64,000 nt of DNA from Cellulomonas sp. RIT-PI-Y (lineage in GTDB: Bacteria; Actinomycetota; Actinomycetes; Actinomycetales; Cellulomonadaceae). A program made the position numbers and the translations under genes. Under the pieces are notes generated by a model. That model ran no database searches. It worked only from the letters and a program-made list of their open reading frames with translations, and had not been told where the DNA came from. Position 1 is the first letter of the stretch. Each line of letters starts with the position of its first letter. The stretch lies in NCBI RefSeq assembly GCF_025642745.1, contig NZ_JANZKP010000017.1:1-64000 (forward strand), in the 5' to 3' direction. Positions 10,250 through 41,999 of the stretch are shown here, one piece after another.

Positions 10250-11203
10250 GTGCTTGCGATCGTCTGCCCGGGACAGGGCGCCCAGACCCCCGGCATGCTC
10301 GGCCCCTGGCTGGAGCTGCCCGGCACCACCGACCGGCTCGCCGCCTTCTCCGAGGCCGCGGGCATCGACCTGACCGTGCACGGCACGACCTCGGACGCGG
10401 ACACCATCCGGGACACCGCCGTGGCCCAGCCGCTGATCGTGTCGACCTCGCTGCTCGCGCTGCGGGCGCTGGAGGACACCCTCGACGCGCCGCTGGTACC
10501 GGACGCCACCGCCGGTCACTCGGTGGGCGAGTTCGCCGCCGCGGCCGTCGCCGGGGTATTCGAGGACGCCGCCGCCGTCGGGCTGGTCGCGCGCCGGGCC
10601 GGGTTCATGGCCGAGGCCGCCGCCGCGGAACCGACCGGGATGACCGCCGTGCTCGGTGGCGACCCGGCCGAGGTGACCGCCGCGATCGAGGCCGCCGGGC
10701 TGTGGCCCGCCAACGTGAACGGCGGCGGGCAGATCGTCGCCGCCGGGTCGCTGGACGCGATCGCCGCCTTCGCCGCGAACCCCCCGGCCCGGGCGCGGGT
10801 GATCCCGCTCCAGGTCGCCGGTGCGTTCCACACGCCGTTCATGCAGCCCGCGCTGGAGTCCTTCGGCGCGATCGCCGCGGACTGGCCGCGCAGCGCCCCG
10901 CGCACCCGGTTCCTGACCAACGCCGACGGCTCGGTGTACGCCGAGGACGCCGACGTGGTGGGCAGCCTGGTCCGGCAGATCGCCGCGCCGGTCCGGTGGG
11001 ACCTGTGCCAGGCCACGCTGGCAGACCTGGGGGTGACCGCCCTGCTGGAGCTGGCGCCGGGTGGTGTGCTCAAGGGTCTGGCCCGGCGTAGCCTGCCCGG
11101 GGTGGAGACCGTGGCGATCACCTCGCCCGAGGACCTCCCCGCCGCCCGCGACCTGATCGCGGCGCACCTGCACACCGATGGATCCCAGGAGAGCGCGAAG
11201 TGA
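10250..11203 (+). CDS. fabD: Malonyl-CoA:ACP transacylase
   Basis: The product has 317 residues from GTG at 10250. A CAGAGT -10-like box ends 7 bp before the start, so the message may be leaderless. It moves malonyl groups from CoA to acyl carrier protein. The N-terminal CPGQGAQ motif, nucleophile motif GHSVGEF (Ser91) and histidine motif AGAFHTPFM are all present. It is the first gene of the fabD-fabH-acpP-fabF operon and overlaps fabH by 4 bp. A lower-confidence alternative is a longer frame extending upstream, rejected because it would cross the operator. Confidence 0.95.
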   Translation: MLAIVCPGQGAQTPGMLGPWLELPGTTDRLAAFSEAAGIDLTVHGTTSDADTIRDTAVAQPLIVSTSLLALRALEDTLDAPLVPDATAGHSVGEFAAAAVAGVFEDAAAVGLVARRAGFMAEAAAAEPTGMTAVLGGDPAEVTAAIEAAGLWPANVNGGGQIVAAGSLDAIAAFAANPPARARVIPLQVAGAFHTPFMQPALESFGAIAADWPRSAPRTRFLTNADGSVYAEDADVVGSLVRQIAAPVRWDLCQATLADLGVTALLELAPGGVLKGLARRSLPGVETVAITSPEDLPAARDLIAAHLHTDGSQESAK

Positions 11204-23519: not shown

Positions 23520-26011
23520 CGGGCGCTCCCTCGGTCGGGCTCGGCGATCGGCAGGGACACCACCATGGTCAGGCCGCCACCGGGGGTGTCCTCCGGGGTG
23601 AGCGTGCCGCCCATCCCCTCGGTGAAGCCGCGGGACAGCGCGAGGCCGAGGCCGAGGCCGGTGAGGTTGTCGGTGTCGCCCAGCCGCTGGAACGGCACGA
23701 ACAGGCCCTCGCGATGGTCCGGGGCGACACCGGGGCCGTGATCGGTCATCCGGATCTCCACCCGGTCGCCGAACCCGCTGGTGCTCACCCGGGGGCGGTC
23801 CGGGTCGAACCGCACCGCGTTCGCCAGGATGTTCACCAGCACGCGGCGCAGCAGGGCGGGATCGGCGGCCACCGGCGGAAGCGCGGGATCGAGGTCGAGC
23901 TCGACGTCGTCCGGGCCGAGTCCCAGCTCGTCGAGCGCGGGCAGGATCACGTCCTCGACGTCGGTCGGCAGCCGGGTCACCCCGAGCACCCCGGCCTGCA
24001 GGCGGGTGACGTCCAGCAGGTCGGTGACCAGGGCGGTCAGGGTACCCAGCGACTCGTCGGCCGTGGCCAGCAGCTCCGCGCGGTCGGCCGGGGACCAGTC
24101 GACGTCCGACTGCCGCAGCGAGCCGATGGCGGTGGTGGCCGCGGTCAGCGGACGGCGCAGGTCGTGGCTGACCGCGGACAGCAGGGCGGACCGGACCTGG
24201 TCGGTCTCCACCAGCGGTCCGACCTCCTCGGCGGTGGCGCGCAGCCGTTGCTGCTCCAGGGCGGCGGCGATCTGGGAGACCACCACCGCGAGCAGCCGGG
24301 CGCCCGCGTCGTCCGGATCGGGGCCGATCCGGTCCAGCACGGTGCGGTCGTCGACCGGGACGGTCCGCACGTCGGCGTCGTCCGCCCAGTCGCCGTCGGC
24401 CGCCAGCACCGTCCCGTCCACCGACCGCAGCCGTACCGCGGTCAGGCCGAAGGACTCCCGGGCGCGGGCCAGCAGTGCCGCCACCGCGTCCTGTCCGCGC
24501 AGCACGCCCCCGGCGACCGTGGTCAGCAGCTCCGACTCGGCGGTGGCCCGTTCGGCGGCCCGGGTGCGGCGCGCCGCCTGGTCCACCACGTAGGAGACCA
24601 GCACCGCGTTCAGGATGTAGAGCAGCAGCGCGACGACATGTCTCGGGTCGCCGACGGTGATGGTGTGCAGCGGCTCGATGAAGAAGTAGTCCAAGGTCAG
24701 CCCGGACAGCACCGCGGCGAACAGGGCGGGCCAGAGGCCGCCGACCAGGGCGACCACCACGACCAGCAGCTGATAGGCCAGCACGTCCCCGACCAGGGTG
24801 TCCTCGGTGCGGGTGGCGCGCAGCACGGCGGTCAGCACGGGTCCGGCGACCAGCGCGAGCAGCAGGCCGAGCACCCGTCGGCGCACGGTCAGCGCCCCGC
24901 CCAGCGGCGGCAGCACCCGTCGGCGGCCACCGGCCGCCTCGTGGTTGACGATGTGCACGTCGATCGGCCCGGCGGCCCGGATGACGGTGGCACCGATCCC
25001 CGGCCCGGACACCAGTGCGGACAGCCGGCTCCGGCGGCTGATCCCGATCACCAGCTGGGTGGCGTCGGCGGCGCGGGCGAAGTCGACCAGCGTCTGCGGC
25101 ACGTCCTCCCCCACCACCTGGTGGAAGCTGCCGCCCAGCTCCTCGGCGAGCGCCGCCTGCGCCGTGAGTGCCCCCGGATCGGAGTCCCGCAGGCCGCTGT
25201 GCGTGGTCACGTGCACCGCGACCAGTTCGCCCCCGGCGCTCCGGGCCGCGATCCGGGCGCCGCGACGCAGCAGGGTCTCGCCCTCCGGACCACCGGTCAG
25301 CGCCACGACCACCCGCTCCCGGGCCTCCCACGGGGCGTCGATCGCGTGCTCGGCGCGGTAGCGGCGCAGCGCGGAGTCCACCTCGTCCGCCAGCCAGAGC
25401 AGGGCCAGCTCGCGCAGGGCGGTGAGGTTGCCGAGCCGGAAGTAGTGCGACAGCGCCGCGTCCACCCGCTCGGCCGGGTACACCTGCCCGTCGGCCAGCC
25501 GGTCCCGCAGCGACTGGGGCGCCAGGTCCACCAGCTCGACCTGGTCCGCCGCGCGCAGCCGGGCGTCCGGCACCGTCTCGCGCTGGGGCACCCCGGTGAT
25601 GGTGCGCACCACGTCGTTCAGCGACTCGATGTGCTGGATGTTCACCGTGGTCAGGACGTGGATCCCCGCGTCCAGCAGCTCCTGGACGTCCTGCCACCGC
25701 TTGGCGTTGCGGGAGCCGGGGGCATTGGTGTGCGCGAACTCGTCGACCAGGGCGACCTCGGGTGCTCGGGCCAGCACCGCGTCCAGGTCCAGCTCGTCCA
25801 GCCCGACACCGCGGTGCTCGACCCGGCGACGCGGCACCACCTCCAGCCCCTCGACCAGGGCGGCCGTGGCGGCGCGGCCGTGGGTCTCCACCACGGCGAC
25901 CACCACGTCCTTGCCCTCCGCGCGCAGATCCCGGCCCGCCTCCAGCATCGCGTAGGTCTTCCCCACACCCGGGGCGGCACCGAGCAGCACCCGCAGTCGG
26001 CCGCGCCTCAT
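23516..26011 (-). CDS. kdpD: KdpD sensor histidine kinase
   Basis: The product has 831 residues. ATG at 26011 was chosen because the family begins just before 'LRVLLGAAPGVGKTYAML'; the frame runs 44 codons further without family sequence. In order there are the KdpD N-terminal domain with Walker A (GAAPGVGKT) and DEFAHTNAPGSRN, a universal-stress-like domain (about 225-350), four membrane helices (about 370-470), a GAF-like region, HisKA with phospho-His in SAVSHDLRRPL, and an ATPase domain with NILANAVRF and GLGLALSRGF. It senses potassium limitation or ionic stress and phosphorylates KdpE. It is shorter than the E. coli protein (894) but complete. Confidence 0.93.
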   Translation of the reverse strand: MRRGRLRVLLGAAPGVGKTYAMLEAGRDLRAEGKDVVVAVVETHGRAATAALVEGLEVVPRRRVEHRGVGLDELDLDAVLARAPEVALVDEFAHTNAPGSRNAKRWQDVQELLDAGIHVLTTVNIQHIESLNDVVRTITGVPQRETVPDARLRAADQVELVDLAPQSLRDRLADGQVYPAERVDAALSHYFRLGNLTALRELALLWLADEVDSALRRYRAEHAIDAPWEARERVVVALTGGPEGETLLRRGARIAARSAGGELVAVHVTTHSGLRDSDPGALTAQAALAEELGGSFHQVVGEDVPQTLVDFARAADATQLVIGISRRSRLSALVSGPGIGATVIRAAGPIDVHIVNHEAAGGRRRVLPPLGGALTVRRRVLGLLLALVAGPVLTAVLRATRTEDTLVGDVLAYQLLVVVVALVGGLWPALFAAVLSGLTLDYFFIEPLHTITVGDPRHVVALLLYILNAVLVSYVVDQAARRTRAAERATAESELLTTVAGGVLRGQDAVAALLARARESFGLTAVRLRSVDGTVLAADGDWADDADVRTVPVDDRTVLDRIGPDPDDAGARLLAVVVSQIAAALEQQRLRATAEEVGPLVETDQVRSALLSAVSHDLRRPLTAATTAIGSLRQSDVDWSPADRAELLATADESLGTLTALVTDLLDVTRLQAGVLGVTRLPTDVEDVILPALDELGLGPDDVELDLDPALPPVAADPALLRRVLVNILANAVRFDPDRPRVSTSGFGDRVEIRMTDHGPGVAPDHREGLFVPFQRLGDTDNLTGLGLGLALSRGFTEGMGGTLTPEDTPGGGLTMVVSLPIAEPDRGSAR

Positions 26012-26174: not shown

Positions 26175-27386
26175 TCAACCTCCCGCGACCAGGTGTCGCG
26201 GCGCCAGCTCCTCCTGCAGCACCAGCGCCGCCGCCCCGACCGCCGCCGCGTCCGCCACCTGCCCGGACAGCATCACCCGGACGTCGTGCCGGGCGGCCGG
26301 GAAGAACTCCGCCGCGATCCGCTCCTGGACCGCGCGCAGGTAGATCGCGCCCGCGGTGGTGAACGACGGGCCGGCCAGCACCAGGGAGTCCAGGTCGAGC
26401 AGGTTCGCCACGGTCACCGCCGCGTCGGCGAGGTAGTCCGCGGACTCCTGGATCAGGTCCCGGCACAGGGCGTCGCCGTGCACCGCGGCGGTGGCGACCG
26501 CGGTGAAGTCGAGGAACGGATCACCGTCGGCGCTCAACCGCACGGCGGAGTCCCGGCCGCCGGCGACCGCCTCCCGGGCCCGTGCGGCGACGGCACGCGG
26601 ACCGGCCAGGTCCTCGACCGTGCCGCCGTCGGGGCGGTGCAGGCGCATCCGGCCGAGCGGTCCGGTGTTGGAGCTGGCGCCCCGGTAGACCGAGCCGCCG
26701 ACCACGATCCCGGCGCCGATGCTCGCGCCCATGTAGAGGGTGCAGTGCGCGAGCGAGCCCGCGATCCGGCCGCTCCAGAACTCGCCGATCGCGGCGGCGG
26801 TGGCGTCGTTGTCCAGCAGCACCGGCAGCGCGGTGGCGGCGGCCAGTGCGTCGCGCAGGGCGTATCCCTGCCAGCGTTCCAGACTGCGGGAGACCAGGAT
26901 CGCGCCCTGGACCAGGTCGAGCGCGCCGGGGGCGACCACGCCGATGCCGACCACCGCGGACGGGTCGACGGCGGCGGCGCGCAGCAGGACGTCCAGTTCC
27001 CCGGCGACGTGCGCGACCACCTCGTCCGGGTCGCGGTCCCGGGCACCGCGCAGCCGGGCGCGGGCGATCACCTGCCCGGCGGCGTCGGCGAGCACCAGCA
27101 CGATCCAGTCGGCGCCCAGCTGGACCCCGACCCCGCACCGGGCGCGCGGGTTGAGGCTGAGCAGCACCCGGGGCTTGCCGCCGGTGTAGGTGCGCTGGTC
27201 GGTCTCGACCAGGAGACCGTCGTCGATCAGGGACCGGACGGCGTGCGAGATCGCGGCCTGGGTGAGCCCGGTGATCCCGGCCAGCTCCACCCGGCTGATC
27301 GGTGCACGGGTGCGCACCAGATCGAGCACCAGGCCACGGGAGGGCGTCGTGCTGCGTGCAGCCCGCCGGCCCGACCGTTCGGACAT
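26175..27386 (-). CDS. ROK-family repressor
   Basis: The product has 403 residues. An N-terminal winged helix (SRVELAGITGLTQAAISHAVRSLIDDGLL) is followed by a ROK sugar-kinase-like domain with 'VLLDNDATAAAIGEFW' and 'MGASIGAGIVVGG'. The zinc-binding CxCGxxGC motif of typical ROK proteins is missing; 'GTVEDLAGPRAVAARA' replaces it, so metal binding is probably lost. It is divergent from the LacI-like gene across 59 bp. As a neighbour of alpha-galactosidase and mannosidase genes, it probably responds to a hexose or an oligosaccharide. Confidence 0.85.
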   Translation of the reverse strand: MSERSGRRAARSTTPSRGLVLDLVRTRAPISRVELAGITGLTQAAISHAVRSLIDDGLLVETDQRTYTGGKPRVLLSLNPRARCGVGVQLGADWIVLVLADAAGQVIARARLRGARDRDPDEVVAHVAGELDVLLRAAAVDPSAVVGIGVVAPGALDLVQGAILVSRSLERWQGYALRDALAAATALPVLLDNDATAAAIGEFWSGRIAGSLAHCTLYMGASIGAGIVVGGSVYRGASSNTGPLGRMRLHRPDGGTVEDLAGPRAVAARAREAVAGGRDSAVRLSADGDPFLDFTAVATAAVHGDALCRDLIQESADYLADAAVTVANLLDLDSLVLAGPSFTTAGAIYLRAVQERIAAEFFPAARHDVRVMLSGQVADAAAVGAAALVLQEELAPRHLVAGG

Positions 27387-28358: not shown

Positions 28359-30494
28359 TCAGACCGCCTCGACGTCCAGCACCAGCGCCTGCGCCGGCCA
28401 GAGACACGGCACCTGGAGCCCGGCCCCGGTCAGCACCCGGCCCGGCAACGTCACCTCGCCCGCGGCGATCCAGGGCGGGCTGCCGGGGGTCCAGCGCGCC
28501 GCGCCGATCTCGTCCCGGACCCGCACCCGGTAGCGCCGGTCGGGGTCGAGTCCCGGCAGCCGGATCGGCTCCGGACGAGCGTCGGCCAGGGTGGCGACGG
28601 TGGCCAGGACGTAGACCGCCCGGTCGGGCAGCACCGCGCCGGTGAGCCGCCAGGCCGGGTCGCGCAGGTCGCCGTGCACCGCCTCGCCGCGGTGGACCAC
28701 CTCCCGCAGCTCCCGGTAGAGCGCGCCGAACCGGCGCAGCGTCCCGACCTCCTCCGGTGGGCAGCCGGTGAGGTCCCACTCGAACCCGGCCGACCCGATC
28801 AGCGCGGTCGCCAGCCGGTAGGACAGGTCGACGGTGCGGCCCGAGGAGTGGGCGGTGGGCGGCCCGACGTGCGAGCCGACCAGCTCGGGGGGCAGCAGCA
28901 GTCCGGTCCACCGCTGGATGTCCTGACGCTCCACCGCGTCGTTGGAGTCCGAGGCCCAGACCCGGTCGGTGACCTCCAGCACGCCCAGGTCGCTGCGCGC
29001 GCCGCCGGAGGAGCAGGACTCGATCTCCAAGCCGGGGTGCCGGGCTTTCAGCTCGGCCATCAACCGCAGCACCGCCACGGTCTGGGCGTGCACCCCGGGC
29101 CGTCCCCCGTGCCGGGCGTCGACCAGGTCGCGGTTGTGGTCCCACTTGAGGAAGGCGATCCCCAGGTCGCCGACCAGCGTGGACAGCCGGTCGAGCAGGT
29201 GGGCGTAGGCCTCGGGACGGGCGACGTCGAGCACCCACTGCCGCCGCCAGGACAGCCCGGCGGGTTCGGGGACCGCCGCCGGGTCGTGCAGCAGCCAGTC
29301 CGGGTGCGCGCGGGCCAGGTCGGAGTCGAGGTTGATCATCTCGGGCTCCACCCAGAGGCCGAACTCCATCCCGAGCGACCGGACGTGCTCGGCCAGCGGC
29401 AGCAGACCGTCCGGCCAGACGGTGCGGTCCACGGTCCAGTCGCCGAGTCCGCGGGTGTCGTCGCGCCGGGCCGGGAACCAGCCGTCGTCCAGCACGAACC
29501 GCTCCACGCCGATCTCCGCGGCCCGGTCGGCGAGCCGGGTGACGGTGGCCGGGTCGTGGTCGAAGTAGACCGCCTCCCAGGTGTTCAGCACGAGCGGGCG
29601 CTGCCGGGCCGGGTGCTGCGGGCGGGCGCGCAGGTGCCGGTGGAAGCGCGCGGTGATGCCGTCGAGTCCCCGGTCGGACCAGGCGAACCAGGCGGTCGGC
29701 GTGGCGTACTCCTGCCCCGGTGCCAGCACCAGCTCACCGGGACGGGTCAGCTCCCCGGCACCGAGCAGGGTGGGGAACTCCGGCCCGTGGTCGGTGCGGT
29801 AGCTGGTGTCGGCGGGCCAGCCGAGGTGCACCGCCCAGACCTCGCCGGTGCGGTTCCGCGGCTGCTCGGGGGTGAGGGCGTACAGCCAGGGCTGGTCGTG
29901 GCCCGGCCGGCCGCGGCGGGACTGACGGACCTGCGCGCCGGGGGCGAGCTCGCCGGTGACCGGGGCCTTCTCCCGGGTCCAGCGCCCGGTGAAGCTGGTC
30001 AGCAGGTGCGCGCGGCTCGGCACCGGCAGGGTGGGCTCCAGCCAGTCGACCTCGACCGGGCCGGTGGCGTCCTCGGTCACGGCGAGCCGGTGCCGGACCC
30101 CGAGCAGTCCACCGGGCCGGAAGGCCAGCTCGACGGTGAGCCGCAGTCCGGGTGCCTCGGCACGGACGGTCACGCGGTCGTCCGCGGCCTCGACCCGTGC
30201 GGCCCAACGGGGGCTGAGCGCCACACCGTCCCGGATCAGCTGGGCTCCCGGACGCCCCGCCCAGCCGTCGGTCTCCTGGGGCAGCAGGCTCACCTGCCAC
30301 GCGGCGTCCAAGGTGCCCGGCGCGGTCTGCCGCCCTGCCCCGGCACGCCAGGCGAGCAGGTCCTCGTCGGTCAGGTCGCCCGGGTCCGCGCCCCAGTGCA
30401 GCACCGCGGGCAGACCGGTGGGCTGCGGGTCGAGCAGCACGGCGACACCGTCACGGCGCAGCAGGACGGGCAGGTCGGCGGGGATCGCTGTCAC
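28359..30494 (-). CDS. Alpha-galactosidase, GH36
   Basis: The product has 711 residues, the usual GH36 length. It has a beta-sandwich N-terminal domain followed by a TIM barrel with FVLDDGWFPARR, GLWVEPEMI and the nucleophile motif KWDHNRD (Asp452). The acid/base Asp lies in WASDSNDAVER (near 517). There is no signal peptide, so it acts on imported oligosaccharides by removing alpha-1,6-galactosyl side groups from raffinose-type or galactomannan-type sugars. It is transcribed alongside the ROK gene at 30560 and converges on the LacI-like gene. Confidence 0.93.
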   Translation of the reverse strand: MTAIPADLPVLLRRDGVAVLLDPQPTGLPAVLHWGADPGDLTDEDLLAWRAGAGRQTAPGTLDAAWQVSLLPQETDGWAGRPGAQLIRDGVALSPRWAARVEAADDRVTVRAEAPGLRLTVELAFRPGGLLGVRHRLAVTEDATGPVEVDWLEPTLPVPSRAHLLTSFTGRWTREKAPVTGELAPGAQVRQSRRGRPGHDQPWLYALTPEQPRNRTGEVWAVHLGWPADTSYRTDHGPEFPTLLGAGELTRPGELVLAPGQEYATPTAWFAWSDRGLDGITARFHRHLRARPQHPARQRPLVLNTWEAVYFDHDPATVTRLADRAAEIGVERFVLDDGWFPARRDDTRGLGDWTVDRTVWPDGLLPLAEHVRSLGMEFGLWVEPEMINLDSDLARAHPDWLLHDPAAVPEPAGLSWRRQWVLDVARPEAYAHLLDRLSTLVGDLGIAFLKWDHNRDLVDARHGGRPGVHAQTVAVLRLMAELKARHPGLEIESCSSGGARSDLGVLEVTDRVWASDSNDAVERQDIQRWTGLLLPPELVGSHVGPPTAHSSGRTVDLSYRLATALIGSAGFEWDLTGCPPEEVGTLRRFGALYRELREVVHRGEAVHGDLRDPAWRLTGAVLPDRAVYVLATVATLADARPEPIRLPGLDPDRRYRVRVRDEIGAARWTPGSPPWIAAGEVTLPGRVLTGAGLQVPCLWPAQALVLDVEAV

Positions 30495-30559
30495 GGCGGG
30501 CTCCAGACGTGGGTCGAGGTCGCAGGGGTCGGGGTGGGAGCGTTACGGGTCGTGGGACT

Positions 30560-31819
30560 TCATGCTGGCACCACACCGGCGCCCCAGACCTCCCCCAGCG
30601 TGGCCCCTGGGGACGACACCCGGCCGACCGGTCCGGTGGACAGGTCGGTTCCGCGCGATCCCCGCAGCACCACCAGCGCACCGCCGACCGCGGCCACCGC
30701 CTCCGGGTCCGCGGACATCCGCAGCTGCACCGGTCGCAGCAGCCGGGCCAGCGCACCGCGTTCCACCACCGGACGTGCCGCCGCCAGCACCAGGGGTCCG
30801 GCCACCGCGAATCCCGGCCCGGCCAGCACCACGGTGTCCAGATCGAACAGGTTCATCAACGTCACCGCCGCGGCGCCCAGGTGTGCGGCCGCTCGGTCCA
30901 GCACCCGGCGGACGGCGGTGTCGCCGTCCAGCGCGGCCCGGGCCAGCGCGTCGAAGTCGTCCAGCAACCGGTCCGGGTCGCCGGTGAGCCCGAGTCTCCC
31001 CGCGACCCCGGGCAGCAGCGCGGCCTCGCGGACCACGGCGAAGGGCCCGGCCACCTGCTCGGTGCACCCCACGTTGCCGCACCCGCACACGCCGGACCGG
31101 GTGGGGTCGAGCGGGATGTGCCCCACCTCCACGACGTTGGCCGCGTCGTCGCCGTAGACGTCGCCGCCCAGGATCACCCCGCCGCCGATCCCGCTGGCCA
31201 GGTACAGCACGCCGAAGGTGTCGGTGCCCGCGTCGCCCGCCCACTGCTCCCCGACCGCGGCGGCCGTCGCGTCGTTCTCCAGCAGCACCGGGAGGTCGAG
31301 CAGGGCGGACAGCGTCGCGGTGAGCGGGAAGTCCTGCCAGGCCGGGGTCGGCTGCGCGGTGCGGATCACCCCGCGCGCCCGGTCCTGCGGGCCGTGGGTG
31401 ACCAGACCGGCGCCGAGCACCAGGCCGCGCGGCACGGCGGCCTCGGCCAGCACCCGTTCCACCTCGGCGGCCAGGGCGGCGAGGGTGTCGGCGGGTTCGC
31501 CGTGCCCGACCCCCGGCAGCACCGTCCCGGCCAGGCGGCGGCCGAAAAAGTTGGTGACCACCACCGTGGTCCGGCAGCGATCGAGCTGGATGCCCACCGC
31601 GTAGCGGGCGTCGGCGACCAGCTCCAGCAGCCGGCGCGGCGACCCGCCGTTCGACCGGGCCCGGCCGACCTCGTGCACCAGACCGTCGCCGATCAGGTCC
31701 CGGACCGCGTGCGTGATGGTCGCCGGGGTGAGGCCGGTGCGATCGGCCAGCTCGACCCGGCTGAGCGTGCCGGCGGTCCGCAGCAGATCGAGCACCCGGA
31801 CCCGAGTGGAAGGAGACAT
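30560..31819 (-). CDS. ROK-family repressor of the ABC importer
   Basis: The product has 419 residues. A winged helix at the N-terminus (SRVELADRTGLTPATITHAVRDLIGDGL) is followed by a ROK domain with 'LLENDATAAAVGEQW', 'LASGIGGGVILGG' and the intact zinc motif CGCGNVGC. It is divergent from the importer's binding-protein gene and co-oriented with the alpha-galactosidase gene. The 14-bp A/T-rich palindrome at 31836-31849 in the shared promoter region is its probable operator. The effector is likely a sugar released from the imported oligosaccharide. Confidence 0.9.
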   Translation of the reverse strand: MSPSTRVRVLDLLRTAGTLSRVELADRTGLTPATITHAVRDLIGDGLVHEVGRARSNGGSPRRLLELVADARYAVGIQLDRCRTTVVVTNFFGRRLAGTVLPGVGHGEPADTLAALAAEVERVLAEAAVPRGLVLGAGLVTHGPQDRARGVIRTAQPTPAWQDFPLTATLSALLDLPVLLENDATAAAVGEQWAGDAGTDTFGVLYLASGIGGGVILGGDVYGDDAANVVEVGHIPLDPTRSGVCGCGNVGCTEQVAGPFAVVREAALLPGVAGRLGLTGDPDRLLDDFDALARAALDGDTAVRRVLDRAAAHLGAAAVTLMNLFDLDTVVLAGPGFAVAGPLVLAAARPVVERGALARLLRPVQLRMSADPEAVAAVGGALVVLRGSRGTDLSTGPVGRVSSPGATLGEVWGAGVVPA

Positions 31820-31829
31820 GCGCAGTATC

Positions 31830-31859
31830 TTGACGTACTAAATTTAGTAGGGCAAGAAT
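31830..31859 (+). promoter_or_regulatory. Importer promoter with embedded ROK operator
   Basis: TTGACG (-35, 31830-31835) and AAGAAT (-10, 31854-31859) are 18 bp apart. The spacer contains the perfect palindrome TACTAAATTTAGTA (31836-31849), very A/T-rich for this genome. A repressor bound there would block RNA polymerase. NagC/XylR-type ROK operators are similarly A/T-rich. Confidence 0.65.
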
Positions 31860-31912
31860 CTCCTTCAGCCTCACCAGAGCCGGTGGGGACCCGCCCGGGG
31901 AGAGGACCAACG

Positions 31913-33607
31913 ATGTTCCTGAGGTCGCGCAGCACCAGAGCCAGGGCCCTGACGGCCACCGCCGCACTCGCGGCCGCCGCACTCACCCTCTCCGCCTGTG
32001 GCGGGGGCGGCGGAGGCGGCGGGTCGACCGGCGGCGGCGACGGGTCGATCACGATCTTCAACGGCGCCACCGGCACCATCACCGAGAACTTCAACCCGTT
32101 CTCCACCACCGCGCTGCAGCCGACCCTCGGGGTCATCTTCGAGCCGCTCTCCTACTACAACCTCGCCGCGGACGTGGAGCCGGAGCCGCTGCTCGCCACC
32201 GACTTCTCCTGGAACGACGACGGCACCGAGCTGACCATCACCACCCGGGACGACGTGTCCTGGTCCGACGGCGAGCCGTTCACCGCCGAGGACGTCGCCT
32301 TCACCTTCAACCTGATCCAGCAGACCCCGGCGCTGAACACCGGCGGCATCGCGGCCACCGCCGAGGCCACCGACGACCACACCGCCGTGCTGACCTTCCC
32401 GGAGACCTCCTTCATGCAGGAGCCCCAGGTGCTCGGCAACCAGGCGATCGTCCCGGAGCACATCTGGAAGGACGTCGCGGACCCCACCACCGAGGTGAAC
32501 CACGACCCGGTCGGCACCGGCGCGTTCACGGTCGAATCGATCTCCGCGCAGTCCTACGTGCTCGCGGCCAACCCGGACTACTGGGGCGGTGAGCCGAAGC
32601 TGCAGCAGGTCCGCTACGTGTCGCTGGACAACGCCGACGCCGCGAGCGCCTCCCTGGTCGCCGGGGACGTGGACTGGATGAGCGCCTTCCTGCCCGGCCT
32701 CGAGGACATCATCACGGGCAACGACGACCTGTCCTACGTCAACACCCCTGCGCTGACCACGGTCATGGTGTCCTGCGCGAACGCCGACCTGGGCTGCTCC
32801 GGCCCGCAGACCGACCCTGCCGTCCGGCAGGCGATCTACCACGCGCTCAACCGGGACCAGCTGAACAACCTGGCCGGCGGCGGGTTCGCCGCGACCGCCT
32901 CCCCCACCATGCTGCTGCCGGAGCGCGACCAGAAGTGGATCGCCGACTCCGACCAGGTCGAGATCCCGCAGAGCGCCGACACCGACACCGCCGCGCAGAT
33001 CCTGGACGACGCCGGCTGGGTCGCCGGCTCGGACGGCATCCGCAGCAAGGACGGTCAGCGGCTGTCGCTGACCATCCAGACCGTCACCGGCTGGTCGGAC
33101 TACATCTCGCTGAACGACGCGATGACCCAGCAGCTGGCCGAGGTCGGCATCGAGCTCAAGCCCACCCAGGTGTCCTGGAACGAGTGGAGCGCGGCGCAGA
33201 CCAACGGCAACTTCCAGCTGTCGCTCGACTCGATCGGTCTGGGCGCGTCCAGCAACCCGTACTTCACGTACAACAAGTTCTACGCCAGCGACAACACGGT
33301 GCCGGTCGGTGAGTCGGCCTCCGCGGGCAACGCGTCCCGGTTCTCCGACCCGACCGTCGACGCCGCCCTGGAGACCGCCCGCTCCACCTCGGACGAGGCC
33401 GTGCAGCAGGAGGCCTACGCCGAGATCCAGAGCGTGATCACCGAGCAGTTCCCGTACATCCCGATCTACATCAACTCGATGCTCACCGAGTTCAACACCT
33501 CCCGCGCCACCGGCTGGCCGACCGCGGACGACACCTACGCCATGCCCGCATCCTGGAAGTCCTGGGACAACGGCCAGGTGTTGAAGACCATCACGCCGGT
33601 GGGGTGA
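31913..33607 (+). CDS. ABC importer solute-binding lipoprotein, family 5
   Basis: The product has 564 residues. It has a basic signal peptide with lipobox LSAC and a Gly-rich linker, so it is a surface lipoprotein. The rest is an SBP_bac_5 (OppA/DppA-type) domain with 'NFNPFSTTAL', 'VSWSDGEPFTAEDVAFTFNL' and 'DPVGTGAFTV'. This family binds peptides but also oligosaccharides such as cello- and manno-oligomers. The neighbouring glycosidases favour the sugar option. It is the first gene of a five-gene importer operon under the ROK operator. The GGGGAGAGG ribosome site is 7 bp from the ATG. Confidence 0.92.
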   Translation: MFLRSRSTRARALTATAALAAAALTLSACGGGGGGGGSTGGGDGSITIFNGATGTITENFNPFSTTALQPTLGVIFEPLSYYNLAADVEPEPLLATDFSWNDDGTELTITTRDDVSWSDGEPFTAEDVAFTFNLIQQTPALNTGGIAATAEATDDHTAVLTFPETSFMQEPQVLGNQAIVPEHIWKDVADPTTEVNHDPVGTGAFTVESISAQSYVLAANPDYWGGEPKLQQVRYVSLDNADAASASLVAGDVDWMSAFLPGLEDIITGNDDLSYVNTPALTTVMVSCANADLGCSGPQTDPAVRQAIYHALNRDQLNNLAGGGFAATASPTMLLPERDQKWIADSDQVEIPQSADTDTAAQILDDAGWVAGSDGIRSKDGQRLSLTIQTVTGWSDYISLNDAMTQQLAEVGIELKPTQVSWNEWSAAQTNGNFQLSLDSIGLGASSNPYFTYNKFYASDNTVPVGESASAGNASRFSDPTVDAALETARSTSDEAVQQEAYAEIQSVITEQFPYIPIYINSMLTEFNTSRATGWPTADDTYAMPASWKSWDNGQVLKTITPVG

Positions 33608-33610
33608 GCA

Positions 33611-34603
33611 GTGCGCTACTTCCTGCAGAAACTCGGCTTCTACGCCGTGGCACTGTGGGCGGCGCTGACGATCAACTTCGTCATCCCGCGGCTGATGCCC
33701 GGCAATCCGGTGGACATCATGCTGTCCAAGCTGGCCACCAAGGGACCCGTCAGCCCGGCCACCCGGGAGGCGGTGGAGGCGCTGCTCGGCACCGACTCCT
33801 CCGCATCCCTGTGGCAGCAGTACCTCGACTACCTGCACGCGCTGGTCAGCGGTGACCTCGGCACCTCGGTCGCGTACTTCCCGGCGGGGGTGGGCGAGAT
33901 CATCGGCCAGACCCTGCCGTGGACGGTGGGCCTGATCGGGCTGTCGACCGTGCTGTCGTTCGTGATCGGCGTCGGGCTCGGCACGTTCGCCGGCTGGAAG
34001 CGCGGGTCATGGCTGGACAACCTGATCCCGTTCACGACCATGCTGCAGTCGGTGCCGTACTTCTGGCTGGCGCTGCTGCTGCTGTTCGCCTTCGGCAGCG
34101 TGTGGCAGATCTTCCCGCTGAACGGCGGCTACGACGTGTGGACCTATTCCGGCCCGGAAATGAGCTGGGGCTTCCTCACCTCGGTGGTCCAGCACGGCAC
34201 GCTGCCCGCGCTGACCATCGTGATCAGCTCGATCGGCGGCTGGATGCTCGGGATGCGCAACATGATGGTGTCCACGCTGTCCGAGGACTACATCGTCACC
34301 GCCGAGGCCAAGGGACTGCGGCCGCGCCGGATCCGGATGGCCTACGCGGCCCGGAACGCGGTGCTGCCGTCGGTGTCCGGCTTCGCCATCTCGCTCGGGT
34401 TCGTGGTCGCCGGGTCCATCGTCACCGAGGCGGTGTTCAGCTACCCCGGGGTCGGCTCGGCGCTGCTGATGGCGGTGAACAGCAACGACTACGCGCTGAT
34501 GCAGGGCGTGTTCCTGGTGATCACGCTCTCCGTGCTCGGCGCGAACCTGATCGTCGACCTGCTCTACGGCCTCATCGACCCGCGCACCCGCGCGCGCTCC
34601 TGA
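33611..34603 (+). CDS. ABC importer permease, DppB-type
   Basis: The product has 330 residues from GTG, 3 bp after the binding-protein gene. Six membrane helices are visible. The first (FYAVALWAALTINFVIPRLMPGNPVD) carries the usual DppB-type motif, and the coupling helix reads 'EDYIVTAEAKGLRPRRIRMAYAARNAVLP'. It forms the channel with the next gene product. Confidence 0.93.
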   Translation: MRYFLQKLGFYAVALWAALTINFVIPRLMPGNPVDIMLSKLATKGPVSPATREAVEALLGTDSSASLWQQYLDYLHALVSGDLGTSVAYFPAGVGEIIGQTLPWTVGLIGLSTVLSFVIGVGLGTFAGWKRGSWLDNLIPFTTMLQSVPYFWLALLLLFAFGSVWQIFPLNGGYDVWTYSGPEMSWGFLTSVVQHGTLPALTIVISSIGGWMLGMRNMMVSTLSEDYIVTAEAKGLRPRRIRMAYAARNAVLPSVSGFAISLGFVVAGSIVTEAVFSYPGVGSALLMAVNSNDYALMQGVFLVITLSVLGANLIVDLLYGLIDPRTRARS

Positions 34604-34615
34604 GGAGGAGGACCC

Positions 34616-35562
34616 ATGGCTGTCATGACTCAGGAAGCACCCGCGGCGCTCGCGGCCCGTCCACCCCGGCGGTTCACCGTCCGGGTCACCCCCAAGCTGA
34701 TCACCGGTGTGGTCCTGGCCGGCGCCATCGTGCTGTTCGGCGTCCTCGGGCCCCTGCTGGTCGGCAATCCCTCCACCGTGCGGGACATCGGCCTGTCCGG
34801 CCCCTCCGGGGAGCACCTGCTGGGCACCACCCAGACCGGGCAGGACGTGCTGGCCCAGCTCGCGCACGCCACCCGCGGCTCGCTGACCATCGGCCTGGTG
34901 GTCGGCGTGCTGACCCTGGTGCTGAGCGCCTTCTTCGGCATCGTCGGCACCTTCGCCGGCGGCGGCTGGGACGAGGGGTTCAGCCTGTTCAGCAACGTCA
35001 TGCTGGTGATCCCCGGCCTGCCGCTGGTGATCGTGATCAGCTCCTACGTGCCGGACAAGAGCATCTGGCTGATCGCGGTGGTGCTGGCCATCACCAGCTG
35101 GGCCGGATCGGCACGGGTGCTGCGCGGGTACACGCTCAGCCTGCGCAACCGGGACTACGTGCTCGCCGCCCGGGTCGCCGGGGAGAAGCGCTGGCGGATC
35201 CTCGCGGTGGAGATCCTGCCCAATCTGATCCCGCTGCTCGCGTCCCAGGTGGTGCTGGCGATCATCGCGGCCATCCTCGGCGAGGCCGGCCTGTCCTTCC
35301 TCGGCCTGGGCGCCACCGGCTCTTTCACCTGGGGAACCATGCTGTTCTACGCCCAGAACGGCCTGGCGCTGCGGCTGGGCGCCTGGTGGTGGTTCGTGCC
35401 GCCGGGCCTGCTGCTGGCCGTGTTCGGCGCGGCCCTGTCGCTGATCAACTTCTCCATCGACGAGATCATCAACCCCAAGCTCCGCGCCCAGACCCGGGCG
35501 GTCCGCAAGAAGTGGCGGATGTCCCGGTCCCAGATCGTCGGGCGGGGAGAGGAGGCGACAGT

Positions 35563-35566
<4 letters not shown>
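34616..35566 (+). CDS. ABC importer permease, DppC-type
   Basis: The product has 316 residues and starts behind GAGGAGGAG. It has six membrane helices. The DppC N-terminal extracytosolic segment 'EHLLGTTQTGQDVLAQL' and the coupling loop 'RDYVLAARVAGEKRWRILAVEILPNLIP' are present. It overlaps the next ATPase gene by 4 bp. Confidence 0.93.
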
Positions 35567-36416
<850 letters not shown>

Positions 36417-36420
<4 letters not shown>

Positions 36421-37205
36421 CCACCCTGGAACTGCGTGACGTCGTCAAGGAGTACCGGCTCGGCCGCCGCACCCTGCGCGCGGTCGACCGGGTCACTCTG
36501 ACGCTGGAGCCCGGTCGCACCCTCGCGCTGGTCGGGCAGTCCGGCTCCGGGAAGTCCACCATCGCGAAGCTGCTGATGCAGCTGGAGCGACCCACCTCCG
36601 GGCAGATCCTGGTGGACGGCAAGCCGGTCGCCCGCCGGGGGCGTGGCCTGCGCGACTACCGCAGCGAGGTGCAGATGGTCTTCCAGGACCCGTTCGCCTC
36701 GCTGAACCCGTACCACTCGATCGGCCACCACCTGGCGCGGCCGGTGGCGCTGCACCACCCCGGGTTCTCCTCCGGCCAGGTCGAGGAGCGGGTGCTCGAC
36801 CTGCTGCGCCGGGTCCGGCTCGACCCCGAGATGGCCCGGCGCCGACCGCACGAGCTCTCCGGCGGTCAGCGGCAGCGCGTCGCGATCGCCCGGGCGCTGG
36901 CCCCCGAGCCGGGCATCCTGGTCGCCGACGAGCCGGTCTCCATGCTGGACGTGTCGATCCGGCTCGGCGTGCTCAACCTGCTGTCCCGGTTGCAGCGCGA
37001 GGAGAACCTCGGCGTCCTCTACATCACGCACGACCTGGCCACCGCCCGGCACTTCTCCGACGAGATCCTGGTCCTCTACCGGGGCGAGGTGGTCGAACGC
37101 GGCCCCGCCGACGACGTCATCCTGCGCCCGCAGCACGAGTACACCCGGCTCCTCGCGCAGGCCGCCCCCGACCCCGACCGCCGCCTCGCCGAACTCGCCG
37201 GCTGA
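36417..37205 (+). CDS. ABC importer ATPase, DppF-type
   Basis: The product has 262 residues. Walker A is GQSGSGKST, Q-loop MVFQDPFASLNP, signature LSGGQRQRV and Walker B ILVADEPVSMLD. The glutamate is preserved. It closes the importer operon. The following 186 bp contain direct and inverted repeats and then the mannosidase gene. Confidence 0.93.
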
Positions 37206-37390: not shown

Positions 37391-40078
37391 ATGCACCACA
37401 CCCCACTCATCGACGGGTGGACGATCGCGCCCACCGGCGGACCCGTCCCGGCCGCGATCACCGACGCCGCACCGCTGCACGCCACCGTCCCCGGCAGCGT
37501 GCACACCGACCTGCTCGCCGCCGATCTGATCCCCGACCCCTTCCTGGACGCCCACGAGGACGACCTGCGCTGGTTCCACCACACCGACTGGCGCTACAGC
37601 CGCGACCTGCTGCTCGACCCGCCCTCACCCGGCGAACGCGTGGACCTGGCCTTCGACGGCATCGACACCGTCTCGACGGTGACCTACGCCGGGTCGGCGC
37701 TGCTGCACACCGCCAACATGCACCGCTCCTACCGGGTGGACGTCACCGACCTGGCCGACGGCGTCGCGCACCCGCTCACCGTGGACCTGCGCTCCGCGAC
37801 CGCCTACGCCGAGGAGCTGCGCGACCGGCTGGGCGACCGTCCGTCCGCCTACCACCCGGTGCCGTTCAACTTCGTCCGGAAGATGGCCTGCTCCTTCGGC
37901 TGGGACTGGGGCCCCGACCTGCGCACCGCCGGACTGTGGCGGGCGGTGCGGGTCGAGCGCTGGCGCACCGCCCGGCTCGCCGAGGTGCGCCCCCTGGTCA
38001 CGGTCGACGACGACGGCACCGGCCACGTCGAGCTGCACGTCGCCGTCGAACGCTCCGGACTGGAGGACGCCGCACCGCTGCCGGTCTCCGCGCAGGTGCA
38101 CGGGGTCCGGGTCGAGGGCACCGTCGACGACGACCGCACCGTGCTCCACCTGGCCGTCCCGGACGCCCCGCTGTGGTGGCCGGTCGGACACGGCGACCAC
38201 CCGCTGCACGAGCTGACCGTCGTCCTGGGCGACGACCTGGACCGGTGGACCCGCCGGATCGGCTTCCGCACGGTCCGGCTCGATCTCACCGACGACGAGC
38301 ACGGCACCTCGTTCGTCCTGGTGGTCAACGGCCGGCCGATCGCGGTCCGCGGCGCCAACTGGATCCCGGACGACCACTTCCTGACCCGGATCACCCGGGT
38401 GCGCCTGGACCGCCGGCTCGACCAGGCCCTCGGCGCGCGGCTCAACCTGCTGCGGATCTGGGGCGGCGGGATCTACGAGTCCGAGGACTTCTACACCGCC
38501 TGCGACGAGCGGGGCCTGCTGGTCTGGCAGGACTTCCTGCTCGCCTGCGCCGCCTACCCCGAGGAGGACCCGATCGGCGCGGAGATCGAGGCCGAGGCCC
38601 GGGAGAACGTCAAACGTCTGGCCCCGCACCCGTCGCTGGTGATCTGGAACGGCGGCAACGAGAACCTCTGGGGCCACGAGGACTGGGACTGGAAGCGCCG
38701 GCTCGGCGACGCCACCTGGGGCGAGCGCTATGCCGTTGACCTGTTCCGCACTGTGGTCGGCGAGCTCGACCCCACCCGCCCCTACACCGACAACAGCCCG
38801 TTCACGCCGGGCCGACCCGAGCTGCACCCCAACGACCCGGACCACGGCAGCCACCACCAGTGGGAGGTCTGGAACCGGGTCGACTACCGCGAGTACCGCT
38901 CGGAGATCCCCCGGTTCTGCTCCGAGTTCGGCTTCCAGGGTCCGCCGACCTGGCGCACCCTCACCGACTGGGTGCACACCGGTGACGACCCCAAGACCGA
39001 CCCCACCTTCCTGATCCACCAGAAGGCCGAGTGCGGCAACGGCAAACTCGACCGCGGGCTGGCCCCGCACCTGGGCGTCCCGGTGGACTTCGCCGACTGG
39101 CACTGGGCCACCCAGCTCAACCAGGCCCGCGCCGTCGAGCACGCCGTGACCCACTACCGGGGCTGGTGGCCGCGCACCGCGGGCTGGATCGTCTGGCAGC
39201 TGAACGACTGCTGGCCGGTGACCTCCTGGGCCGCGGTCGACTCCGAGGAGCGCCCCAAGCCGCTCTGGTACGCGCTGCGCAACGCCGGGTCGCCACGGCT
39301 GATCACCGTGCTGGACGGCGACGTCGTCCTGGTCAACGACACCGACCAGGTCTGGGACGGGGACCTGACCCTGCGGCGGCAGCGGCACGACGGGACGGCG
39401 CTGTCCGGCACCACGCACCCGGTCACGGTGGCGGCCCGGTCCGTCACCCGCGTCCCGGCGCCGAACGCCGAGCACCCCGCCGTCGAGGTCCTGGTCGCCG
39501 GGCTGGGCGAGACCCGCCACCTGCACGTCTACGCCGAGGACATCGACTCCGCCCTCGACCCGCACCCCATCACCGCCACCGCCGAGCGCGTTCCCGGCGG
39601 CTACCGGGTGCACGTCACCGCGCACTCCACCGCTCGCGACGTCACCCTGCTGCCGGACCGCCTGGCCGCCGACGCCGTCGTCGACGAGGCCCTGGTCGAC
39701 CTGCCCGCGGGCGCCACGGCGACCTTCACAGTCCGCACCGCCGCCGACCTCGACCCCGCCGACCTCACCCGCTCCCCCGTCCTTCGCACCGCCAACGAGC
39801 TGCGGGCGGTCGACGTCGTGGCGGCCGCGGACCGCACGACGGACCCGGGCGTGCGGCAGACTGCACCCGTCCCGATCAGCGACGATGCCGAGGCCACCGC
39901 ATCACCCAGGTCGACCTGCCCCTGTCCGCCCTGCGCGAGTACCGGCCGGACGTCCCCGCCCCCGCCGACTTCGACGACTTCTGGTCCCGGACCCTCGCCG
40001 AGGCCCGCCGGCACCCGATGGACGTCACCCTGCGCCGGGTGGACGGCCCCCTGTCCCTGGTCGACGTCGACGACGTGA
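37391..40078 (+). CDS. Beta-mannosidase, GH2, with abnormal read-through C-terminus
   Basis: The product reads 895 residues. Residues 1-837 are a complete intracellular GH2 beta-mannosidase: jelly-roll N-terminal domain, 'WDWGPDLRTAGLWRAV', acid/base Glu424 in GGNENLW, nucleophile Glu512 in FCSEFGFQ, and 'WQLNDCWPVTSW'. It removes mannose from the non-reducing end of manno-oligosaccharides. The last 58 residues are out of character (Pro/Ser/Thr/Cys). They are the esterase gene read in a wrong frame. The codon at 39902-39904 is TCA; a G at 39903 would make TGA and end the protein at the expected place. Confidence 0.88.
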   Translation: MHHTPLIDGWTIAPTGGPVPAAITDAAPLHATVPGSVHTDLLAADLIPDPFLDAHEDDLRWFHHTDWRYSRDLLLDPPSPGERVDLAFDGIDTVSTVTYAGSALLHTANMHRSYRVDVTDLADGVAHPLTVDLRSATAYAEELRDRLGDRPSAYHPVPFNFVRKMACSFGWDWGPDLRTAGLWRAVRVERWRTARLAEVRPLVTVDDDGTGHVELHVAVERSGLEDAAPLPVSAQVHGVRVEGTVDDDRTVLHLAVPDAPLWWPVGHGDHPLHELTVVLGDDLDRWTRRIGFRTVRLDLTDDEHGTSFVLVVNGRPIAVRGANWIPDDHFLTRITRVRLDRRLDQALGARLNLLRIWGGGIYESEDFYTACDERGLLVWQDFLLACAAYPEEDPIGAEIEAEARENVKRLAPHPSLVIWNGGNENLWGHEDWDWKRRLGDATWGERYAVDLFRTVVGELDPTRPYTDNSPFTPGRPELHPNDPDHGSHHQWEVWNRVDYREYRSEIPRFCSEFGFQGPPTWRTLTDWVHTGDDPKTDPTFLIHQKAECGNGKLDRGLAPHLGVPVDFADWHWATQLNQARAVEHAVTHYRGWWPRTAGWIVWQLNDCWPVTSWAAVDSEERPKPLWYALRNAGSPRLITVLDGDVVLVNDTDQVWDGDLTLRRQRHDGTALSGTTHPVTVAARSVTRVPAPNAEHPAVEVLVAGLGETRHLHVYAEDIDSALDPHPITATAERVPGGYRVHVTAHSTARDVTLLPDRLAADAVVDEALVDLPAGATATFTVRTAADLDPADLTRSPVLRTANELRAVDVVAAADRTTDPGVRQTAPVPISDDAEATASPRSTCPCPPCASTGRTSPPPPTSTTSGPGPSPRPAGTRWTSPCAGWTAPCPWSTSTT

Positions 40079-40872
40079 CCTTCCCCGGCTTCGACGGCGA
40101 CCCGGTGCGCGCCTGGCTGGTCCGGCCGGCCGGCCGCACCGACCCGCTGCCGGTGATCGTCGAGTTCAACGGCTACGGCGGCGGACGCGGTCTCCCGCAC
40201 GAGCGCCTCGCCTGGCCCACCGCGGGCTACGCGCACCTGTTCGTGGACTCCCGGGGCCAGGGCTCCGGCTGGGGCAGCGGCGGCGAGACCCCGGATCCGC
40301 ACGGCTCCGGCCCCGCCGGGACGGGCTTCCTCACCCGCGGCATCCTCGACCCCGCCGAGCACTACTACCGCCGCCTGATCACCGACTGCGTCCGCGCGGT
40401 CGACGCGGTCCGCACCCTGGACGGCCTCGACCCGGATCGGATCGTGGTCGCGGGCGGGTCCCAGGGCGGCGGGCTCACCGTCGCGGTCGCCGGGCTCGTC
40501 GACGGCCTGGCCGCCGCCCTGCCCGACGTCCCGTTCCTCTGCCACATCGCCCGCGGCGTCGAGGTCTCGGACACCGACCCCTACGGCGAGGTCACCCGCT
40601 ACCTCGCCGTGCACCGCGACCAGGCCGACCAGGTGTTCCGCACCCTGTCCTACCTGGACGGCCTGCACCACGCCGCCCGCGCCACCGCCCCCTCGCTGTT
40701 CTCGGTCGGCCTCCAGGACACCGTCTGCCCGCCGTCGACCGTCTTCGCCACCCACCACGCCTGGGCCGGCCCCTCGTCCATCGAGGTCTACCCGTACAAC
40801 CAGCACGAGGGCGGCGGCGGGCACCACTGGCAGCGCCAGGCGGCGTGGCTGCGGGAGGTGCTCGGGTCCTGA
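39901..40872 (+). CDS. CE7 acetyl esterase with missing start codon
   Basis: The frame encodes a complete CE7 (acetylxylan esterase / cephalosporin-C deacetylase) protein of 323 residues if it begins at 39901. The family N-terminus 'QVDLPLSALREYRPD' is intact. Motifs are RGQGSGWG, GGSQGGG with nucleophile Ser187, and the late catalytic Asp/His region ('GLQDTVCPPST', 'NQHEGGGGHHW'). The first codon is ATC, not ATG. The next in-frame ATG is at 40018 and would lose 39 residues. A single C-to-G change at 39903 would restore both this start and the mannosidase stop (ATGA). The enzyme deacetylates imported mannan or xylan fragments in the cytoplasm. Confidence 0.85.
   Translation: MTQVDLPLSALREYRPDVPAPADFDDFWSRTLAEARRHPMDVTLRRVDGPLSLVDVDDVTFPGFDGDPVRAWLVRPAGRTDPLPVIVEFNGYGGGRGLPHERLAWPTAGYAHLFVDSRGQGSGWGSGGETPDPHGSGPAGTGFLTRGILDPAEHYYRRLITDCVRAVDAVRTLDGLDPDRIVVAGGSQGGGLTVAVAGLVDGLAAALPDVPFLCHIARGVEVSDTDPYGEVTRYLAVHRDQADQVFRTLSYLDGLHHAARATAPSLFSVGLQDTVCPPSTVFATHHAWAGPSSIEVYPYNQHEGGGGHHWQRQAAWLREVLGS

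Positions 40873-41632: not shown

Positions 41633-41999
<367 letters not shown>

Follow-up and report, generated by a model that had tools for sequence, protein, structure and literature searches.

Does a single base in Cellulomonas sp. RIT-PI-Y deprive a β-mannosidase gene of its stop codon and the adjoining acetyl esterase gene of its start codon, and, if so, does the change belong to the organism or to the assembly? We analysed a stretch of 64,000 nucleotides (the window) that holds both genes. A reading made from the letters and open reading frames, without database searches (the sequence-only reading), had proposed that ATCA stands at 39901–39904 in place of an overlapping start and stop, ATGA. 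Reading the window directly confirmed both the letters and their coordinates. The mannosidase open reading frame runs from ATG at 37391 to TGA at 40076–40078 and comprises 895 codons, compared with 837 if it ended at 39901, and translation to this next stop places 58 residues past the expected end. The esterase frame contains no stop over 323 codons (39901–40869), has ATC as its first codon and is open upstream as far as TGA at 38983. The in-frame ATG, GTG or TTG codons nearest to 39901 are GTG at 39166 upstream and ATG at 40018 downstream. The GTG lies 245 codons earlier, within the mannosidase gene, and was ruled out as the esterase start; beginning at the ATG removes 39 codons. The frames agree with the sequence-only reading on the normal lengths of the two proteins (837 and 323 residues) and on the choice left to the esterase, which must start at ATC or at 40018 with the loss of 39 residues. 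They also bear out its description of the mannosidase extension as a junk tail: the 58 residues are the esterase gene read out of frame, and a Pfam search found no match in them. Seven nucleotides before 39901 is a GAGG (39890–39893), a possible Shine–Dalgarno sequence for a start at that position.

Table 1. Positions of the features discussed, numbered from the first letter of the window
Feature	Position	Strand	Basis or remark
GH2 β-mannosidase, part aligning with relatives (837 codons)	37391..39901	+	tblastn, Pfam, solved structures
GAGG, candidate Shine–Dalgarno sequence	39890..39893	+	Upstream sequence; role inferred
ATCA where both relatives carry the overlapping start/stop ATGA	39901..39904	+	Three-way alignment, unaligned flanks
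AXE1-type acetyl esterase gene, with ATC at the start position	39901..40872	+	Pfam AXE1, 1vlq, orthologues with ATG
Out-of-frame extension of the mannosidase frame (58 codons and TGA)	39902..40078	+	Translation, next stop
First ordinary start (ATG) of the esterase frame, after 39 codons	40018..40020	+	Frame scan
α-Galactosidase (Melibiase)	28359–30494	-	Upstream neighbour
ROK regulator	30560–31819	-	Upstream neighbour
Two ABC permeases	33611, 34616	+	Upstream of mannosidase
Two ABC ATPases	35563, 36417	+	Weak matches; second just above cut-off, to an oligopeptide-transporter C-terminal model

Both proteins were compared with known families. The closest solved relatives of the upstream protein are β-mannosidases (5n6u, E 7.1e-118 over residues 23–635; 2vjx, E 1.8e-92), and it matches the Pfam family Glyco_hydro_2_N2, although a search of NCBIfam gave no model above its cut-off. 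From its relation to the solved enzymes, the gene is predicted to encode a GH2 β-mannosidase. The downstream protein matched the Pfam family AXE1 (PF05448) at E 1.3e-99, with 333.5 bits against a cut-off of 21 and coverage of profile positions 4–319 of 321, and the solved acetyl xylan esterase 1vlq at E 7.5e-109. Its GGSQGGG motif aligned unchanged to 1vlq and corresponds to the conserved region of the catalytic serine; we take the serine of this motif to be the nucleophile, and the AXE1/cephalosporin C deacetylase family to be carbohydrate esterase family 7. The esterase thus resembles this family over nearly the full length of both the Pfam profile and 1vlq, but its gene differs in lacking an ordinary start codon where the N terminus is encoded: none allows the whole AXE1 domain to be made, as the first codon is ATC and the next start is at 40018. 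A product begun at 40018 would be without AXE1 profile positions 4–40 of 321, scored 283 rather than 333 bits and would be expected to fold badly. A second copy of the esterase was ruled out, as this gene is the single match in the genome at E 0.001.

We then compared the junction with those of other members of the genus, using a set of 81 genomes that includes the window's own and a match threshold of E 0.001. Esterase matches were found in 76 of these genomes and mannosidase matches in 65. The two abut in three of the 81 (G000, G009 and G073), as judged by eye from the match tables, in which contig breaks could hide others. Mannosidase residues 1–837 were 83.8% identical to G009 and 81.4% identical to G073 by tblastn. 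The junction reads GC-ATGACCCAGGTCGA in G009 and G073 and GC-ATCACCCAGGTCGA in this genome, so that both relatives have ATGA in the aligned columns, as the sequence-only reading had predicted for close relatives (here two). The shared stop and start bases of an ATGA gene pair are therefore present in both relatives and absent here. As ATGA occupies these columns in each relative whose pair abuts, the difference from ATCA is not a chance one. Neither relative shares ATCA, and a conserved tail was ruled out, as the mannosidases of both stop earlier. Nor did the alternative of an indel elsewhere in the junction hold: the three-way alignment contains none from 39850 to 40078, and the nearest gap is one of three bases between 39849 and 39850. 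The three genomes are approximately equidistant (86.0 to 86.9% over the 37 to 41 kb aligned), and, since G009 and G073 agree, we placed the change on the branch leading to this genome. A single-base change at an ancestral ATGA almost certainly explains the difference.

These comparisons suggest the following history. The ancestor of the clade would have had β-mannosidase and acetyl esterase genes that shared a four-base ATGA overlap, an ordinary arrangement by which translation is often coupled. A single base of this overlap would later have changed in the lineage of this genome, seen as a G-to-C difference on the + strand. The C at 39903, present here and absent in G009 and G073, as written removes the mannosidase stop and the esterase start together. 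Ribosomes translating mannosidase would then continue out of frame through 58 codons of the esterase gene and, instead of stopping beside its start, would terminate 174 nt further downstream, within that gene; little or no full-length esterase would be made. The mannosidase is probably still functional despite the short tail. According to PMC10666635, a ribosome finishing the first gene of an ATGA overlap can restart on the second, and a spacing of about 20 nt nearly abolished coupling in six tested pairs; in PMC6728339, coupling was not uniform among E. coli pairs. The junction in G009 and G073 has the same form as the four-base ATGA or GTGA overlaps that couple adjacent genes in these two papers, whereas here a single base abolishes it. 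When an upstream stop is lost, the first gene can extend into a long overlap with its downstream neighbour, which PMC10666635 and PMC3887535 describe as a route to overlapping genes. The present case is similar in that the stop is lost and the frame next closes within the downstream gene, and differs in that the same base also removes the downstream start. We regard the change as an ordinary single-base lesion of a familiar type of gene overlap. It shows the weak point of overlapping genes, where a single base can cost one gene its end and its neighbour its beginning.

Some low-level initiation at ATC, aided by the GAGG, may still occur. We consider it improbable, however, that the organism carries the change and yet makes useful amounts of esterase from ATC, as a natural ATC-started gene with the retained GAGG as its ribosome-binding site, and a shade less probable still that translation from a natural ATC beside this site proceeds at a level uncoupled from that of mannosidase. 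The spacing of the GAGG would suit such a start, and the frame and body of the esterase are intact and constrained. Non-canonical start codons also exist in bacteria, such as AUU in the gene for IF3 (a work cited in PMC2268962), although such starts are reportedly inhibited when IF3 is elevated (PMC2268962). However, with the stop gone, ribosomes arriving from upstream terminate elsewhere than beside the start, and both relatives have ATG at this position.

Both reading frames are open from 38986 to 40075, and the two proteins might instead be joined as a mannosidase–esterase fusion through −1 frameshifting. This stretch contains one heptamer of the X XXY YYZ type, CCCGGGC at 39844, which lies in the mannosidase frame and has identical letters at the aligned place in G009 but is absent in G073. 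Such heptamers are not above chance in the mannosidase gene (2 in 896 codons versus a mean of 5.3 in shuffled codons), and the mannosidases of both relatives end at the TGA of the junction. We therefore give a frameshifted fusion hardly any credence.

The more serious competitor of a real loss is a sequencing or assembly error, in which case ATGA would be the organism's true sequence and neither gene would be damaged. The lesion is a single base at a site that is alike in both relatives, the esterase gene carries no other signs of decay and the assembly is a draft of 94 contigs, all of which would fit an error. For an estimate of assembly quality, 378 kb of G009 were compared with 264 kb of this genome (3.5 Mb) and 340 kb of G073, with genes called mechanically by a rough gene caller. 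Base rates were taken from overlaps defined in G009, as the window's own open reading frames were selected for having starts and stops and would make the test circular. Overlaps of the NTGA type are common: the 378 kb of G009 contain 31, and the window itself has, for example, ATGA at 35563, 36417 and 15436 and GTGA at 11200. The count of 31 leaves out the mannosidase–esterase junction, the G009 esterase being missing among the called genes. Sixteen of the 31 overlaps were readable here and all 16 are still NTGA; the remaining 15 were unreadable. Of 240 genes called in G009, 136 were matched here; an internal stop was flagged in two of these and a frameshift in none. Both flags are probably spurious: one stop precedes the probable true start, and the other is common to G073 and apparently lies in the wrong frame. 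The sample thus looks clean, though this is no proof for any individual base. With no convincing lesion in 136 compared genes and every readable overlap intact, errors seem to be rare, and it would be coincidental for an error to strike a site of this kind, but no less so for a mutation. Nor is the type of change unusual: of the changes unique to this genome in 38 kb, G-to-C forms the largest class (585 of 1,952), although this spectrum is shaped mainly by accepted changes and bears only loosely on a single lesion.

The age of the change was judged from substitutions unique to each genome, with only the esterase and mannosidase counts used, as the set of frames picked in the window also held several on the wrong strand and at least one row in a wrong frame (32001–33607). 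In the esterase, those at codon positions 1, 2 and 3 numbered 5, 4 and 27 here, 15, 12 and 38 in G009 and 23, 12 and 35 in G073, giving ratios of positions 1 and 2 to position 3 of 9/27, 27/38 and 35/35, respectively; the G009 figures may be slightly too high because of an 8-base alignment gap close to the end of that gene. The share of positions 1 and 2 is lower here rather than raised (Fisher p 0.13 versus G009 and 0.02 versus G073, uncorrected). The mannosidase, with 34, 36 and 80 changes here and 33, 33 and 100 and 47, 41 and 102 in the relatives, showed no difference in position share (Fisher p 0.26 and 1.0). We found neither an internal stop nor, relative to G009 and G073, relaxed constraint in the esterase, the signs sought of a decaying pseudogene. 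Selection has therefore acted on the gene along most of the branch, so that the lesion is recent, absent from the organism or not a full loss; the lack of decay would also be expected from an error or from an ATC start that still functions. On balance, the reading we prefer, with some assurance, is that the organism truly carries the change and that it amounts to a loss. In our judgement, a very recent mutation in the sequenced strain is favoured over a base-calling or assembly error, which we hold to be unlikely but deserving of weight. For annotation, the 58-residue mannosidase tail and a shortened esterase would need support from reads before being treated as biological features.

The genes from 28359 to 37205, which include those for the α-galactosidase, a ROK regulator and ABC transporter components, look, together with the mannosidase and esterase, like a locus through which acetylated galactomannan or galactoglucomannan would be taken up and broken down.

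On the other side of the esterase, similarity to the syntenic stretches of G009 and G073 (matches of more than 400 bases) ends at or just after a tRNA-Asn gene at 41633–41706, and the region from 41706 to 64000 may be an island adjoining this gene. A search within the window for exact repeats of the 3' part of the tRNA, as a mark of the far end of the putative island, revealed no such end; the longest hit was a 14-base inverted match at 23522. We also observed two genes for ROK-family regulators on the same strand, at 26175–27386 and 30560–31819, that cross-match each other's G009 counterparts at 64 to 68% nucleotide identity and look like paralogues. Adjoining the counterpart of the first of these, G009 has approximately 5 kb of extra sequence (G009:C20, about 88.9–94.1 kb).
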